A stretch of DNA of 64,000 nt. Origin: Parvularcula sp. LCG005. GTDB lineage: Bacteria; Pseudomonadota; Alphaproteobacteria; Caulobacterales; Parvularculaceae. Where the stretch lies: the NCBI RefSeq assembly GCF_032930845.1, contig NZ_CP136758.1, positions 1,875,001-1,939,000 of the forward strand. The letters run 5' to 3'. The position numbers and the translations under genes are program-made. The notes beneath the pieces are model-generated. The model searched no databases and had not been told where the DNA came from. It saw only the letters and a program-made list of their open reading frames with translations. Shown here one piece after another: positions 24,908 to 31,098 of the stretch (position 1 is its first letter; every line of letters begins with the position of its first letter).

Positions 24908-27900
24908 TTATTTAGCGGCAGATCGGTCCAGGGCCAATGATGACCGCGTCAACTCAACCGCGGCCACGCCTTCAACGGTTTTCAAACTGCCTTTGACTGC
25001 CGCGCTGATCGCGCAACTGGCCGGCATGGCGAGTTCAACCTCATATCCGGTATCCTGGGTCGGCAGAATCAGGACGACCGTGCCCGGCGGCCCGCCATTG
25101 GCGGGCGGCAATGCCTCCAGCCGCCGCTTGATGGACGGCAGCGCGTCCGGCGTTTCCAGCACGATCCGGACGCAATCATCCCGCTCGATCGGGCGCAGAT
25201 CGTCGAGGCGACGGATCCCCTCACCCGTCAGTCTGATACCGCCGCCTTGGTCTTCCGCCGTCACCGTCAGATGCAATCGCTGGCCGGGCTCAAGCATATC
25301 CTTGGCGTGTTCCAGAAGTTCCGAGAAAATCGTGATTTCGAAATCACCCGTCTGGTCTGACAGGGTCAGCCAAGCAAACGGCTTGCCGGACTTGGATCGC
25401 CGCCGCGAAACGTCGCGCACAATGCCCGCCAACTGTACCACGATCCGGCTGTCTTTCGCCTGCTCCATCGCCTGCGCGACCGAGATGACACCGCGTTCGG
25501 TCAACGCATCCCGGTAGTCGTCCAGGGGGTGGCCGGTCAGGTAAAAGCCAAGGGCCTCGGCCTCACGCTCAAGCTGGTCCAGCGACGACCATGGCTCGAC
25601 ATCAGGCACGTCGGGGCGGGCCAGTCCCGGTCCTGACTGTTCACCGAACAGGCCGCCTTGGTCGCTGGCCTTTTCCGCCTGTACGGCAACTGAGTAACGC
25701 AGGAAGAAATCAGCATGCTGAAAAACCTGCGCACGATTTTTCGTCAGGCAGTCGAAGGCCCCGGCTTTTGCCAGTTGCTCAAAGCCACGCCGGCCGATCT
25801 TGCGCACATCAACCCGCTCGCAGAAATCAAAAATATCCTCGAAGACGCCCCCGGCCGTTCGGGCCTTCACGACTTCCTGCATGGCCTCGACACCGACATT
25901 TTTCAGCGCGCCCATGGCATAGAGAATGGCATCATCCCGGACGGCAAAATCGGCGTCGGATTCGTTCACCGATGGCGGTTTGAGGATAACGCCGCACCGC
26001 CGAGCCTCGCTGGCGAACAGGGCCATCTTGTCCGTCAGCGCCATATCAAGGGACATCGACGCAGCGATGAAGGCGGCGGGATGGTTCGCTTTCAGAAACG
26101 CTGTCTGATAACTGATCCACGCATAGGCCGCCGCGTGAGATTTGTTGAAACCATAGCCGGCAAACTTGGCCACGAGTTCAAAGATGCTGTCCGCCTTGGC
26201 TGGATCGACCTCGTTCGCCGCCGCCCCTTCGACAAACCGCTTCTTCTGCTTGTCCATCTCCTCTTTTTTCTTCTTGCCCATCGCGCGGCGAAGAAGGTCA
26301 GCTTCGCCCAGCGAATAGCCTGACAGGATCTGGGCAATCTGCATCACCTGCTCCTGATAGATGATGACGCCGTAGGTTTCCTTCAGCACATCTTCGAGCA
26401 GCGGGTGGAGGTAGTCCGGCTCCTCCAGCCCCGCCTTCCGGTCGATATAGGTTGGGATGTTATCCATCGGACCGGGACGGTAGAGCGAGACGAGAGCGAT
26501 AATATCTTCAAGACAGTCAGCATTCAGCCCACGGAGGGTTGCGCGCATGCCCGAACTTTCAAGCTGAAACACGCCAACCGCATCGCCGCGGCCAAGCATC
26601 TCATAGGTGGCCTTGTCATCAAGCGGGATCGCATCGATGTCGAGCTCAACACCAGCCCCCTTCAGATAGTCGATGGCCCGCTTGATCACCGTGAGGGTCT
26701 TCAGCCCCAGAAAGTCAAATTTGACGAGACCTGCGGGCTCCACCCACTTCATGTTGAACTGGGTCACCGGCATGGGCGAGCGCGGATCCCGATAGAGGGG
26801 AACAAGCTCGTGCAGCGGCCGATCCCCGATCACGACGCCGGCCGCATGGGTCGACGCATGACGATAAAGCCCCTCAAGCTTCAACGCCGTGACAAGCAGG
26901 CTGTCGACCGCGCTGTCGCGTTTGCGTTCGTCCTTGAACTGAGGTTCGACCTCGATCGCTTCGGCCAGTGTGACAGGGTTCGCCGGATTGTTGGGCACCA
27001 TCTTGCAGAGGCGATCCACCTGCCCGAAGGGCATCTGCAGTACACGGCCAACATCCCGCAATACGGCCCGCGCCTGCAGCTTACCGAAGGTAATGATCTG
27101 GGCCACGCGGTCGAACCCATAGCGGTCCTGCACATAGCCGATGACCTCGTCCCGCCGGTCCTGGCAGAAATCGACGTCGAAGTCGGGCATGGACACCCGC
27201 TCTGGGTTGAGGAAGCGTTCGAACAGCAGGTTGAACCGCAAAGGATCAAGGTCGGTAATCGTCAGCGCATAGGCCACGAGCGAGCCCGCACCCGAGCCCC
27301 GCCCCGGCCCCACGGGAATATCGTGGTTCTTGGCCCATTTGATGAAGTCCGAAACGATCAGAAAGTATCCCGGAAATCCCATCCGGTTGATGATCCCCAA
27401 CTCCTTTTCGAGCCGGTCCCAATAGGCCTGTTCGGGCTGCGCCAAGGGGATGCTGGCGAGCCGGTTGCGCAGCCCCTCTTCGGCCTCTGCGCGCAAAGCC
27501 GCCTTCTCCCCTTCAAGGTCGCCGGCAAAACTGGGCAGGATGGGCGGAAAGGTACGTGGACGGAAGGCACAGCGCTGGGCAATCTCCACCGTCGCATCAA
27601 TGGCTTCGGGCAGGTCCGCAAACAGCGCTACCATCTCCTCAGCCGACCGGAAGTAATGACCGTCACTGACCTGGCGTCGGTCCGACTGGCTGATATAGGC
27701 CCCGTCGGCAATACACAGGAGCGCATCATGGGCGCTGTGATCGCCGCGGCCGTTGAAGTAGACATTATTCGCGGCAACGACTGGCAGGTCTTCGGCAATG
27801 GCCATGCCCACAAGCCCAGGCTCCGCCGGGTAGCGGCCATCCCGATCTGTCTTTTCACTCTCAGGGTGACGCTGAAGCTCGATATAGAGTCTGTCGGCAA

Positions 27901-28396
27901 AAGCGTCTTTCAGCGCCTTAAGCACGGTCAGGGCCGCATCCCCCTCGCCTGCCTCGATCAGCCGGTCGACAGGTCCCTGTGGCCCACCGGTCAGGCAGAT
28001 CAGACCTGCAGACTGGGCCATCAGAGATGTCAGGCTGACCCCGACCTCAAGCCCGTCGGCCGGGTTCAGATACGCCTCCGACCCCACGGCCATCAGGCTC
28101 TTGTACCCCTCCTCCGACTGGGCAAGGAGCACCACGCTAGGGGGCCGTCCCTCACTCAGTTCAATCTCCGGCAGATCGATCTTGATCGACAGCTCAATCC
28201 CGGTGATCGGCTGGATCCCCTGACCACTGAGCACTTCTGACGCTTCGAGGGCCCCGAAGAGATTGTTTGTATCCGTCACCGCAAGGGCTGGCATGCCCGA
28301 CTGCTGACACAGCTTGACCAGATGGCCGATATGGATCGCCCCCTCTGCGAGAGAAAAGGCCGAATGCAGATGAAGATGGACGAATGGCTGGCTCAC
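24908..28396 (-). CDS. dnaE: DNA polymerase III alpha subunit (replicative DnaE)
   Basis: DnaE is the catalytic subunit of the replicative polymerase. The 1162-residue length fits DnaE1, not the shorter DnaE2. The PHP domain (HLHSAFSLAEGA, then LAVTDTNNLFGALE) covers about 1-270. The polymerase active site has the catalytic aspartates in SMPDFDVDF (about 397-405), preceded by GPGRGSGAGS. Thumb and fingers include KTYGVIIYQEQVMQIAQ-like and NKSHAAAYAWISYQTAFLK-like segments, then an OB domain (about 970-1060). The start is GTG with AAGGTGG before it. A micro-ORF behind a LexA-boxed promoter lies 64 bp upstream on the same strand, with no terminator seen between, so SOS input is possible. Confidence 0.97.
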   Translation of the reverse strand: MSQPFVHLHLHSAFSLAEGAIHIGHLVKLCQQSGMPALAVTDTNNLFGALEASEVLSGQGIQPITGIELSIKIDLPEIELSEGRPPSVVLLAQSEEGYKSLMAVGSEAYLNPADGLEVGVSLTSLMAQSAGLICLTGGPQGPVDRLIEAGEGDAALTVLKALKDAFADRLYIELQRHPESEKTDRDGRYPAEPGLVGMAIAEDLPVVAANNVYFNGRGDHSAHDALLCIADGAYISQSDRRQVSDGHYFRSAEEMVALFADLPEAIDATVEIAQRCAFRPRTFPPILPSFAGDLEGEKAALRAEAEEGLRNRLASIPLAQPEQAYWDRLEKELGIINRMGFPGYFLIVSDFIKWAKNHDIPVGPGRGSGAGSLVAYALTITDLDPLRFNLLFERFLNPERVSMPDFDVDFCQDRRDEVIGYVQDRYGFDRVAQIITFGKLQARAVLRDVGRVLQMPFGQVDRLCKMVPNNPANPVTLAEAIEVEPQFKDERKRDSAVDSLLVTALKLEGLYRHASTHAAGVVIGDRPLHELVPLYRDPRSPMPVTQFNMKWVEPAGLVKFDFLGLKTLTVIKRAIDYLKGAGVELDIDAIPLDDKATYEMLGRGDAVGVFQLESSGMRATLRGLNADCLEDIIALVSLYRPGPMDNIPTYIDRKAGLEEPDYLHPLLEDVLKETYGVIIYQEQVMQIAQILSGYSLGEADLLRRAMGKKKKEEMDKQKKRFVEGAAANEVDPAKADSIFELVAKFAGYGFNKSHAAAYAWISYQTAFLKANHPAAFIAASMSLDMALTDKMALFASEARRCGVILKPPSVNESDADFAVRDDAILYAMGALKNVGVEAMQEVVKARTAGGVFEDIFDFCERVDVRKIGRRGFEQLAKAGAFDCLTKNRAQVFQHADFFLRYSVAVQAEKASDQGGLFGEQSGPGLARPDVPDVEPWSSLDQLEREAEALGFYLTGHPLDDYRDALTERGVISVAQAMEQAKDSRIVVQLAGIVRDVSRRRSKSGKPFAWLTLSDQTGDFEITIFSELLEHAKDMLEPGQRLHLTVTAEDQGGGIRLTGEGIRRLDDLRPIERDDCVRIVLETPDALPSIKRRLEALPPANGGPPGTVVLILPTQDTGYEVELAMPASCAISAAVKGSLKTVEGVAAVELTRSSLALDRSAAK

Positions 28397-28460
28397 AATG
28401 CCACCTTATCGAAGCTTGCGCTGCAGAAAACGGCTTCTTTTCAACAGCACGGCACGCGCA

Positions 28461-28544
28461 TCAGACCACGCCGCACAGGCAGGCTGCCCCCGAGATCATT
28501 CCAAGCAGAACGCAGAAACCGAGCATGTCCTTGAAGTGCGTCAT
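28461..28544 (-). CDS. 27-residue hydrophobic micro-protein behind an SOS promoter
   Basis: I do not recognise this sequence. It is an ATG-to-TGA frame of 28 codons with GAGGG 4 nt upstream. The N-terminus is polar (MTHFKD) and residues 7-27 form one unbroken hydrophobic stretch of 21 residues, the length of a membrane span, with three cysteines (11, 22, 24) and a GxxxG-like pair (G15, G19). It begins about 22 nt after the predicted transcription start of a strong promoter occupied by two perfect LexA boxes. In Caulobacter the SOS-induced division inhibitor SidA is a 29-residue single-span protein, so a SidA-like role is a reasonable hypothesis. It might also be a leader peptide for dnaE, 64 bp downstream. 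Confidence 0.5.
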   Translation of the reverse strand: MTHFKDMLGFCVLLGMISGAACLCGVV

Positions 28545-28572
28545 CGTACCCTCGCTATATGATTGCAAAATC

Positions 28573-28622
28573 ATCATAGTTCCTGTTATGTTCTCATGTC
28601 AACAATTGTTCTTTTTTTGTTC
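28573..28622 (-). promoter_or_regulatory. Sigma70-type promoter overlapped by two perfect LexA boxes
   Basis: On the minus strand TTGACA (28597-28602) and TATGAT (28573-28578) are 18 nt apart. Two copies of GTTC-N7-GTTC, the alphaproteobacterial LexA operator, lie at 28579-28593, filling the spacer, and 28608-28622, just upstream of -35. Starts of the copies are 29 bp apart. The placement is that of a tightly LexA-repressed promoter firing toward the micro-ORF and dnaE. The divergent helicase gene starts 140 bp away on the other side and may also respond. Confidence 0.82.
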
Positions 28623-28761
28623 TATCACCGACCATCCCGCAAGCTATTGAATTTCGTCATCCTTTCGGTTGCGAGAGGAGTTTTCCACAATGCGGGCCAT
28701 TTTCCTGCGAAGCGGATCTCAAGACTGGCGGCGATGGATAGTCGCGCGTTATAGGAGTGAA

Positions 28762-31098
28762 ATGACATCCAAACCTTCGTTGGCAGCCCGGGCTGCCGCC
28801 AGCATTGCGCCGCGTCCTGCCGCCGATGCGGCCTATCTTGATGGCCTTAATCCGCCCCAGCGCGAGGCGGTCCTCACCACGGAGGGACCCGTCCTCATGC
28901 TGGCCGGTGCCGGCACTGGCAAGACCAAGGCGCTGACATCTCGGCTGGCGCACCTTCTGGCGAGCGGCAAGGCACAGCCATGGCAGCTGCTGGCAGTGAC
29001 CTTCACCAACAAGGCAGCGCGAGAGATGCGTCATCGCATCGGTGCCATTGTGGGCGAGACCGTGGAGGGCATGCGGTGGCTGGGCACGTTCCACTCGATC
29101 GGCGCGCAGATCCTCAGACGTCATGCGGAAGTGGTCGGCCTGAAATCCAGCTTCACGATTATCGACACCGACGACCAGCTGCGCCTGTGCAAACAGGTCA
29201 TCGAGGCCGCGGGTCTTGATGAAAAACGCTGGACCGGCCGGGCGCTCGCCGGCGTGATCGACAATTGGAAAAATGCCGGCCTGATCCCGACCCAGGTCCC
29301 CAAGGACGATGCCTGGACCTTCGCCGATGGCAAAGCGATCGACCTCTACAGGGCTTATCAGGAGCGACTGGTCAGTCTCAACGCGGCCGATTTTGGCGAC
29401 CTTCTCGTCCACAACCTGTCCATTTTCCGGGCACAGCCGGATATCCTCGCGACCTATCACAAGCAGTTCCGCTACATGATGGTCGACGAATATCAGGATA
29501 CGAACGTCGCCCAGTATCTGTGGTTGCGCCTTCTGGCTCAACGGCCGGGCACGGACGAACCGAGCAATATCTGCGTCGTTGGTGACGATGATCAGTCCAT
29601 TTATGGCTGGCGCGGCGCCGAGGTTGAGAACATCCTGCGGTTTGAAAAGGACTTCCCCGGCGCGAAGGTCATTCGCCTGGAGCAGAACTATCGCTCGACA
29701 CCGTCGATACTCGCCGCAGCCTCCTCGATCATCAGTCGCAATGAAGACCGGCTTGGTAAGACGTTGTGGACGGCGCTGGAGGAAGGCGAATGCGTCCGCC
29801 TGCGCGGCGTCTGGGACGCCGATGAAGAAGCGCGGACGATCACGGACGATATCGAGGCGGAGCAATCCAAGGGCCGCAGCCTGTCCGACATCGCGGTTCT
29901 CGTGCGCGCCTCGTTCCAGATGCGGTCGTTCGAAGAGCGCTTCAACACCGCCGGTATCCCCTATCAGGTCGTCGGGGGGCCGAGATTTTACGAGCGGGAG
30001 GAAACCCGCGACGCCCTTGCCTATCTGCGCCTTGTCCGCAACCCGGATGATGATCTGAGCTTTTCCCGCATCATCAACAAGCCGCGCCGAGGATTTGGCG
30101 ACAAAGCCCTCCAGACGCTGATGATCGCAGGGCGTTCCGCCGGGGTCAGCCTGTTTGAAGCAGCGCAGCGCCTGCTGGAGACGGACGAGGTGAAGGGCAA
30201 GGCCAAGACGTCTCTTCGCCTGTTCATTGAGTCGCTGCATCGCTGGCGTGCATTGGCGGCCGATGTCCCGCCGGGCGACCTGAGCGAAACAGTCCTCGAA
30301 GAATCGGGGTACACGGATTTCTGGCGCCAGTCGAAGAGCGTTCAGAGCGGCACCAAGCTCGAGAACCTCAAGGAACTCGTGCAGGCGGCCTCCGAGTTCG
30401 AAACGCTGGACGGCTATCTTGATCATGTCAGCCTTGTGGCCGAGCGGTCCACCAACGATGACGGCAGCGGCATGGTCTGGCTGATGACGCTACACGCGGC
30501 CAAGGGGCTTGAATATCCTGTCGTCTTCCTGCCGGGCTGGGAGGAAGATCTGTTCCCCTCCGGACGATCCCTCGATGAGAGCGGCAAGGCCGGCCTCGAG
30601 GAAGAGCGTCGCCTTGCCTATGTCGGGATCACGCGGGCACGCGAGTCCTGCCGGATCAGCTTCGCCGCCAATCGCCAGGTCTATGGCCGGTGGCAGTCTG
30701 CCCTGCCCTCGCGATTTATCGATGAGTTGCCAGAAGAGCATGTAGACGTCATTTCCGAGCCCGGCCTTTACGGGGTGAAGGCACGCGACATGCCGAGCCA
30801 GTCGCGGTTTGACGCAGAAGCGCTCTCGACACGGAATGGCTACGATACCCCTGGCTGGCGCCGGGCGCAGCAATCCCGCCGGACCAGCCGCCCACCGGCC
30901 ATTGAAGGGTCCGCGAAACTGATCGCTTCCTCTGCAGCCGGATCATCGCCCTATAAGGTCGGGGACCGCGTCTTCCACCGCAAATTCGGTGACGGCACGG
31001 TCCAGCGCAACGAGGGCAACAAGGTCACGGTCCATTTCGACGATGACGGCGAAAAGAAAGTGATTTCAAGCTTCCTTACGCCATCGGCCGACGGCTGA
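28762..31098 (+). CDS. uvrD: UvrD/PcrA-type superfamily 1 DNA helicase
   Basis: This 3'-5' helicase acts in excision and mismatch repair and removes proteins from DNA. The 778-residue protein has all SF1A motifs: Walker A AGAGTGKT (near 52), LGTFHSIGAQILR, motif II VDEYQDTN (near 243), GDDDQSIYGWRGAE, QNYRSTPSI, MTLHAAKGLEYPVVFLPG and RLAYVGITRARE. A C-terminal Tudor-like PcrA domain, GDRVFHRKFGDGTVQ, closes it. The ATG at 28762 has GGAGTGAA before it and matches family length; an upstream TTG at 28669 is rejected. It is divergent from the LexA-boxed promoter. Confidence 0.95.
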   Translation: MTSKPSLAARAAASIAPRPAADAAYLDGLNPPQREAVLTTEGPVLMLAGAGTGKTKALTSRLAHLLASGKAQPWQLLAVTFTNKAAREMRHRIGAIVGETVEGMRWLGTFHSIGAQILRRHAEVVGLKSSFTIIDTDDQLRLCKQVIEAAGLDEKRWTGRALAGVIDNWKNAGLIPTQVPKDDAWTFADGKAIDLYRAYQERLVSLNAADFGDLLVHNLSIFRAQPDILATYHKQFRYMMVDEYQDTNVAQYLWLRLLAQRPGTDEPSNICVVGDDDQSIYGWRGAEVENILRFEKDFPGAKVIRLEQNYRSTPSILAAASSIISRNEDRLGKTLWTALEEGECVRLRGVWDADEEARTITDDIEAEQSKGRSLSDIAVLVRASFQMRSFEERFNTAGIPYQVVGGPRFYEREETRDALAYLRLVRNPDDDLSFSRIINKPRRGFGDKALQTLMIAGRSAGVSLFEAAQRLLETDEVKGKAKTSLRLFIESLHRWRALAADVPPGDLSETVLEESGYTDFWRQSKSVQSGTKLENLKELVQAASEFETLDGYLDHVSLVAERSTNDDGSGMVWLMTLHAAKGLEYPVVFLPGWEEDLFPSGRSLDESGKAGLEEERRLAYVGITRARESCRISFAANRQVYGRWQSALPSRFIDELPEEHVDVISEPGLYGVKARDMPSQSRFDAEALSTRNGYDTPGWRRAQQSRRTSRPPAIEGSAKLIASSAAGSSPYKVGDRVFHRKFGDGTVQRNEGNKVTVHFDDDGEKKVISSFLTPSADG

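Follow-up and report, generated by a model that had tools for sequence, protein, structure and literature searches.

A LexA-type promoter and a one-span micro-ORF directly before dnaE in Parvularcula: a positional counterpart of sidA and an apparent far-diverged relative of the Caulobacter division inhibitor

A micro-ORF and its promoter upstream of dnaE

The window analysed here is a stretch of 64 kb from Parvularcula sp. LCG005, whose 3.08 Mb genome is assembled as a single contig. On its minus strand, a micro-ORF with a single hydrophobic span is followed on the same strand, after a gap of 64 nt, by the gene for the alpha subunit of DNA polymerase III, while a helicase gene of the uvrD/pcrA type diverges from it on the other side (Table 1). 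The first of two LexA-type boxes, together with the trinucleotide TGA, makes up the 18-nt spacer of a TTGACA/TATGAT promoter on the minus strand, and about 22 nt lead from the expected transcription start to the GAGGG and ATG of the micro-ORF. The initial annotation, made from the letters, had described just this arrangement, with two perfect GTTC-N7-GTTC boxes, one within the promoter spacer and the other adjoining the -35, and with GAGGG before an ATG that opens 27 codons; each of these elements was borne out. Between positions 28300 and 28850 the promoter was the sole promoter-like site (shuffled sequences gave a mean of 0.2), and a scan of this same region found no terminator-like site between the micro-ORF and dnaE.

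Table 1. Features of the micro-ORF locus, in window coordinates.
Feature	Positions	Strand	Basis or detail
Micro-ORF MTHFKDMLGFCVLLGMISGAACLCGVV	28461..28544	-	27 codons, ATG at 28544, stop ends 28461; one hydrophobic span
LexA-type box GTTCCTGTTATGTTC, in promoter spacer	28579..28593	.	exact GTTC-N7-GTTC
LexA-type box GTTCTTTTTTTGTTC, 5 nt upstream of -35	28608..28622	.	exact GTTC-N7-GTTC
Sigma-70-like promoter TTGACA-18-TATGAT	28573..28602	-	11/12 consensus matches
GAGGG, ribosome-binding-like site, ends 4 nt before ATG	28549..28553	-	sequence
dnaE, DNA polymerase III alpha subunit, GTG start at 28396	24908..28396	-	NF004226, 1423.6 bits
uvrD/pcrA-type helicase, divergent from micro-ORF	28762..31098	+	found upstream of dnaE in the window's genus only

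The number of boxes in the window is by itself unremarkable (two, against a mean of 2.02 in shuffles); two of them within 44 nt on one promoter are notable. GTTCN7GTTC is given as the SOS box of Caulobacter (PMC9578287). Across the source genome GTTC-N7-GTTC occurred 91 times, as opposed to 45 occurrences of a reversed-pattern control, and exact boxes preceded lexA, recA, uvrA, and radA, with lexA directly after its box (box at 1682655, lexA from 1682732). Because of this genome-wide excess and these neighbors, it is very likely that LexA uses this motif as its operator in this organism, in agreement with the identity proposed for it earlier. Box neighbors were surveyed in 16 stretches around AT-rich examples picked by eye, which held 17 boxes. 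Specifically, among the 10 box-adjacent ORFs scanned, recA, radA, and a DNA-repair-linked radical SAM protein scored above their curated cut-offs; uvrA (cut by the end of its stretch), an RmuC-like protein, and an MraZ-like protein scored below them; and one had no match. With two exact boxes of a motif shared with lexA and recA, the promoter of the micro-ORF is, by sequence, predicted to be LexA-controlled.

Two other exact boxes of the source genome were noted, both outside the window. One, at genome positions 1735967-1735981, lies about 161 nt before the MraZ-like gene. The MraZ gene usually heads the division and cell-wall cluster, and through this box the SOS response may have a second connection to division. 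The other, at genome position 2320713, precedes an ORF of 245 aa, and a second dnaE-type gene lies some 2.5 kb away. NCBIfam models gave no hit to this ORF at E up to 1e-10; box and ORF, near that dnaE-type gene, perhaps represent an imuA-like mutagenesis cassette.

Conservation and coding constraint

Comparison was based on 107 dnaE loci, comprising 30 from whole genomes and 80 named loci, minus three duplicates (L042, L043, and L044, equal to L015, L026, and L021, respectively). Among the 41 whole genomes, dnaE was not found in two (G016 and G017, 78% complete), and nine further dnaE-bearing genomes, all from other families of the order, were left out of the whole-genome loci. To call micro-ORFs, we used a hidden Markov model, A1, with a minimum score of 8 bits; A1 was built from 35 micro-ORFs of the sampled loci, which match it by construction. 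Start codons were assigned by rule, as the nearest ATG or GTG with a Shine-Dalgarno-like stretch, and lengths are approximate.

With A1, a forward micro-ORF was found before dnaE in 83 of the 107 loci. The window's micro-ORF scored 34.7 bits, against a best score of 8.6 bits in 2140 trials with shuffled upstream regions. Named genera that carry it include Caulobacter, Phenylobacterium, Brevundimonas, Asticcacaulis, Maricaulis, Robiginitomaculum, and Parvibaculum, as well as Bradyrhizobium and Jiella, both of which are Hyphomicrobiales. The 24 loci in which no micro-ORF was called include every one named as a Rhodobacteraceae-type genus or as Magnetospirillum/Phaeospirillum, and two of the 24 had short upstream sequence (77 nt in L071, 307 nt in L100). 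The Asticcacaulis copies (L057, L059, and L081) have HN in place of the basic-acidic pair before the span, together with one-mismatch boxes only, and two of them are the lowest calls of all, at 8.3 and 8.8 bits, level with the best shuffle.

The boxes accompany the micro-ORF. In the 160 nt ahead of the start codon, an exact box was present in 68 of the 83 micro-ORF loci and a one-mismatch box only in the other 15 (0.5% and 5.8%, respectively, in shuffles), and 75 of the 83 had two or more boxes. An exact box within 500 nt was found in 67 of the 83 loci with the micro-ORF versus one of the 24 without (Fisher p 5e-12, a value that is overstated since the loci are related). The start codon follows the last exact box at a median distance of 21 nt, and the gap between micro-ORF and dnaE ranged from 31 to 452 nt, with a median of 93. 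In eight Bradyrhizobium/Pseudolabrys-like loci (L086, L087, L092, L093, L113, L114, L117, and L120), two exact boxes stand in opposite orientation with their starts 18 nt apart; box pairs elsewhere point in the same direction.

This distribution bears on a further reading, namely that it is the divergent uvrD that the boxes control, the micro-ORF being incidental. In its favor, uvrD could plausibly belong to the SOS response, and its ATG comes 139 nt after the outer box; however, uvrD stands upstream in only eight of the 107 loci, all from the window's genus, and boxes and ORF persist elsewhere. Within that genus itself, uvrD was absent upstream in two of 10 loci (upstream sequence reached at most 1.5 kb in the whole-genome set and 3 kb in the named set). 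Moreover, the inner box lies within the promoter that faces the micro-ORF. We consider an incidental micro-ORF highly improbable, while the box pair may also control uvrD in the window's genus.

Among the Parvularculaceae in which dnaE was found, an intact one-span micro-ORF was present in 23 of 23 loci, with an exact box in 21 and a one-mismatch box in two. A frame broken in close relatives while the boxes persist, which the initial annotation had named as evidence against a gene, was thus not what we found: frame and boxes occurred together throughout. Additionally, a search not centred on dnaE, across 289 genomes of the class, returned an A1 match in 43 genomes at E<=0.1 and in 12 at E<1e-3. 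In the 11 genomes that remained of the latter after setting aside the window's own, 10 hits stand ahead of dnaE in its own orientation, whereas the eleventh lies at a contig end; two of these genomes (G026 and G030) were already represented in the 107 loci, though outside A1. For A1 hits weaker than E 1e-3, 18 loci were inspected; six of them had dnaE nearby, and one of these six (L137) lay inside the dnaE frame. None of these hits was counted.

At the codon level, pN/pS was 0.26-0.52 in six groups of same-length copies, chosen by hand, and third codon positions varied most. The group of the window is one pair, with a value of 0.52 and synonymous sites near saturation, and for this reason the better evidence of constraint on the window's own copy is the frame kept intact across its family, alongside a match of 16.2 bits to a model of 13 copies from other Parvularculaceae genera (p 0.0025, above all 400 shuffles of the span). 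The ten copies of the window's genus gave p 0.0025 to 0.027 against this same model. As judged from these comparisons, the micro-ORF is a real conserved gene.

A leader peptide, the translation of which governs dnaE on a shared mRNA, would also stand where this gene stands. The micro-ORF precedes dnaE on the same strand in 83 of 83 loci (by construction of the sample) and in 10 of the 11 strong hits of the unbiased search, and in the window no terminator was found between the two, which fits a shared transcript. We nevertheless regard a leader as improbable, given that the gap to dnaE is so variable (31 to 452 nt), that the peptide itself is under coding constraint, that the folding of 28380-28566 does not surpass that of shuffled sequence (z +1.74), and that Caulobacter SidA is reported to be active from plasmids (PMC4211646).

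In the window peptide, residues 7-27 are uncharged and form the single predicted span. The three Cys and the GxxxG-like pair singled out in the initial annotation are present (Cys at 11, 22, and 24; G15-x-x-x-G19), but they are not marks of the family: three Cys occur in one of the 83 copies, which is the window's own, 45 of 83 have no Cys, and GxxxG is found in 15 of 83. Both were dropped as functional marks. The mean helical moment of the family was 0.13.

Relation to SidA and to other SOS-induced peptides

SidA is described as a 29-aa inner-membrane protein that serves Caulobacter as its main inhibitor of division in the SOS response and interacts with FtsW and FtsN (PMC4211646); its gene is listed as CCNA_02004 (PMC10769358). 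The place of sidA was judged from C. zeae and Caulobacter sp. D5, standing in for C. crescentus. In both, an ORF with two boxes of one mismatch each lies directly before dnaE. The ORF in Caulobacter sp. D5 is SidA according to NCBIfam NF033228 (29/29 positions, 72.4 bits, cut-off 35), and that of C. zeae differs from it at the last residue only. Of 14 control genomes scanned with NF033228, that of Caulobacter vibrioides also gave a match.

The window peptide and SidA are similar in size and layout, each having a short N-terminus that carries a basic-acidic pair and leads into one hydrophobic span; both genes have LexA-type boxes upstream and stand directly before dnaE. Unlike the 29-aa SidA, the window peptide has 27 aa, lacks Trp, and falls outside NF033228, which did not match it at E up to 1 (cut-off 35 bits). 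This model gave 0 matches over the 289 genomes of the class. At E up to 0.01 it recognized six A1 members out of 35, which did not include the window peptide, and it was rejected as a means of finding the family.

For sequence similarity, we relied on a stricter test in which the hydrophobic span alone is shuffled, rather than on shuffling of the whole peptide; similarity groups were assigned by hand from record labels, and some members of the Caulobacteraceae type are generically labelled. Under the span shuffle, the window peptide gave p 0.51 against a model of 34 Caulobacteraceae-type copies, p 0.44 against the Hyphomicrobiales type, and p 0.055 against all copies from outside the Parvularculaceae. 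The best of the four models, at p 0.012, combined the Caulobacteraceae type with a mixed set of 12 further copies (from Maricaulis, Oceanicaulis, Robiginitomaculum, PS1, Parvibaculum, Tepidicaulis, and more). The whole-peptide shuffle favored homology more, because it scatters the N-terminal charges too (p 0.02 for all others, 0.005 for the mixed set, and 0.43 for the Caulobacteraceae type). Direct homology of the window peptide to the Caulobacteraceae-type copies was not significant by either procedure. When all 23 Parvularculaceae peptides were examined with the span shuffle, nine reached p<0.05 against all others, none against the Caulobacteraceae type, two against the Hyphomicrobiales type, and nine against the mixed set; the reverse search with a Parvularculaceae model recovered six of 60 other copies at p<0.05, barely over chance. 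Profile comparison gave E 0.029 and a probability of 0.9% for the Caulobacteraceae type, and E 5.5e-4 and 12.5% for the Hyphomicrobiales type.

The proposal of a SidA-like peptide in the initial annotation was therefore right in kind: place, size, layout, and LexA-type control agree with those of SidA as identified in Caulobacter sp. D5, while a match to NF033228 is lacking. By its location, the window ORF is the positional counterpart of sidA, and its peptide appears to be a far-diverged counterpart of SidA, a link that draws on position, LexA control, size, and layout, together with the weak bridging similarity of the mixed set. Common descent with sidA is the simplest reading of position and control, the sequence itself stopping short of proof, and the window peptide is not classed as a proven SidA. 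In searches of the open PMC literature, the titles and abstract openings returned described neither SidA relatives outside Caulobacter nor a link between sidA and dnaE, although the founding paper (Modell et al. 2011) may mention either; SidA is known, and none of these titles and openings named a dnaE-linked family across the class.

The main rival is a LexA-controlled peptide of the DinQ/TisB kind, which, once cells are damaged, would bring down the membrane potential or ATP without acting on the divisome. Escherichia coli DinQ is reported to be a one-span SOS peptide that depolarises the membrane and leaves filamentation unaffected (PMC3567139). Both kinds are tiny SOS-induced inner-membrane peptides and DinQ, too, has 27 aa, such that size and hydrophobicity cannot separate this reading from the SidA-like one, and the sequence of the window peptide gives no significant tie to the SidA of Caulobacteraceae. 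However, the window ORF occupies the place that SidA has in Caulobacter. Further, DinQ and TisB have antisense RNA partners, whereas no Rfam family matched in 27900-29200 at E up to 1, which argues against a described antisense RNA at this locus, the search being limited to described RNAs. We consider an action of the DinQ/TisB kind unlikely, and favor the SidA-like one. YneA and SosA, from Gram-positive bacteria, are larger than the window peptide. Compared by description alone, these resemble the proposed peptide in SOS-induced inhibition of division, YneA in Bacillus subtilis with a reported FtsW interaction (PMC13396833) and SosA in Staphylococcus aureus (PMC6851548).

Proposed action and a possible link to dnaE

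We put the probability at roughly 0.7 that the micro-ORF encodes a genuine LexA-repressed, damage-induced, one-span inner-membrane peptide that is the Parvularculaceae counterpart of the sidA product and most likely SidA-like in action. From the gene, its conservation, its boxes, its promoter, and its position, which are read directly in the DNA, we infer the following course. LexA bound to the promoter boxes would keep the micro-ORF off; upon DNA damage, LexA would be cleaved, leading to derepression, expression, and synthesis of the peptide. It would then insert in the inner membrane and hold the late septum-building complex (FtsW/FtsI/FtsN) inactive, with FtsW/FtsN as the putative target of the division block, until re-accumulation of LexA relieved it. 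The SOS transcript of the micro-ORF may run on through dnaE, and dnaE is perhaps raised in SOS on that transcript because no terminator was found between them.

An FtsW-like gene is present in the source genome, with a best match of 315.4 bits, below the model cut-off of 337.5. In Caulobacter, FtsW A31K is reported to suppress SidA (PMC4211646). The FtsW of the window's genome has Leu aligned with A31 (numbering checked against C. zeae FtsW at A31, F145, and A246, which fit), and because of this Leu the SidA-FtsW contact, if kept, would have changed.

On a broader scale, we see about even odds for an ancient family that has stayed directly in front of dnaE across the Alphaproteobacteria, from Parvularculaceae and Caulobacteraceae as far as Hyphomicrobiales, and whose members are membrane micro-proteins under LexA control; in this view NF033228, the one NCBIfam model, sees a small part of the family, and one SOS transcript would both halt division and supply the replicative polymerase. 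If the micro-ORFs act like SidA, an FtsW-type DNA-damage checkpoint would go far back in the class and yet mostly escape notice, since the peptides are short, at about 25-35 residues, and have diverged past the curated model. Finally, their recurrent place before dnaE raises the question of whether the SOS response raises the replicative polymerase while halting division.
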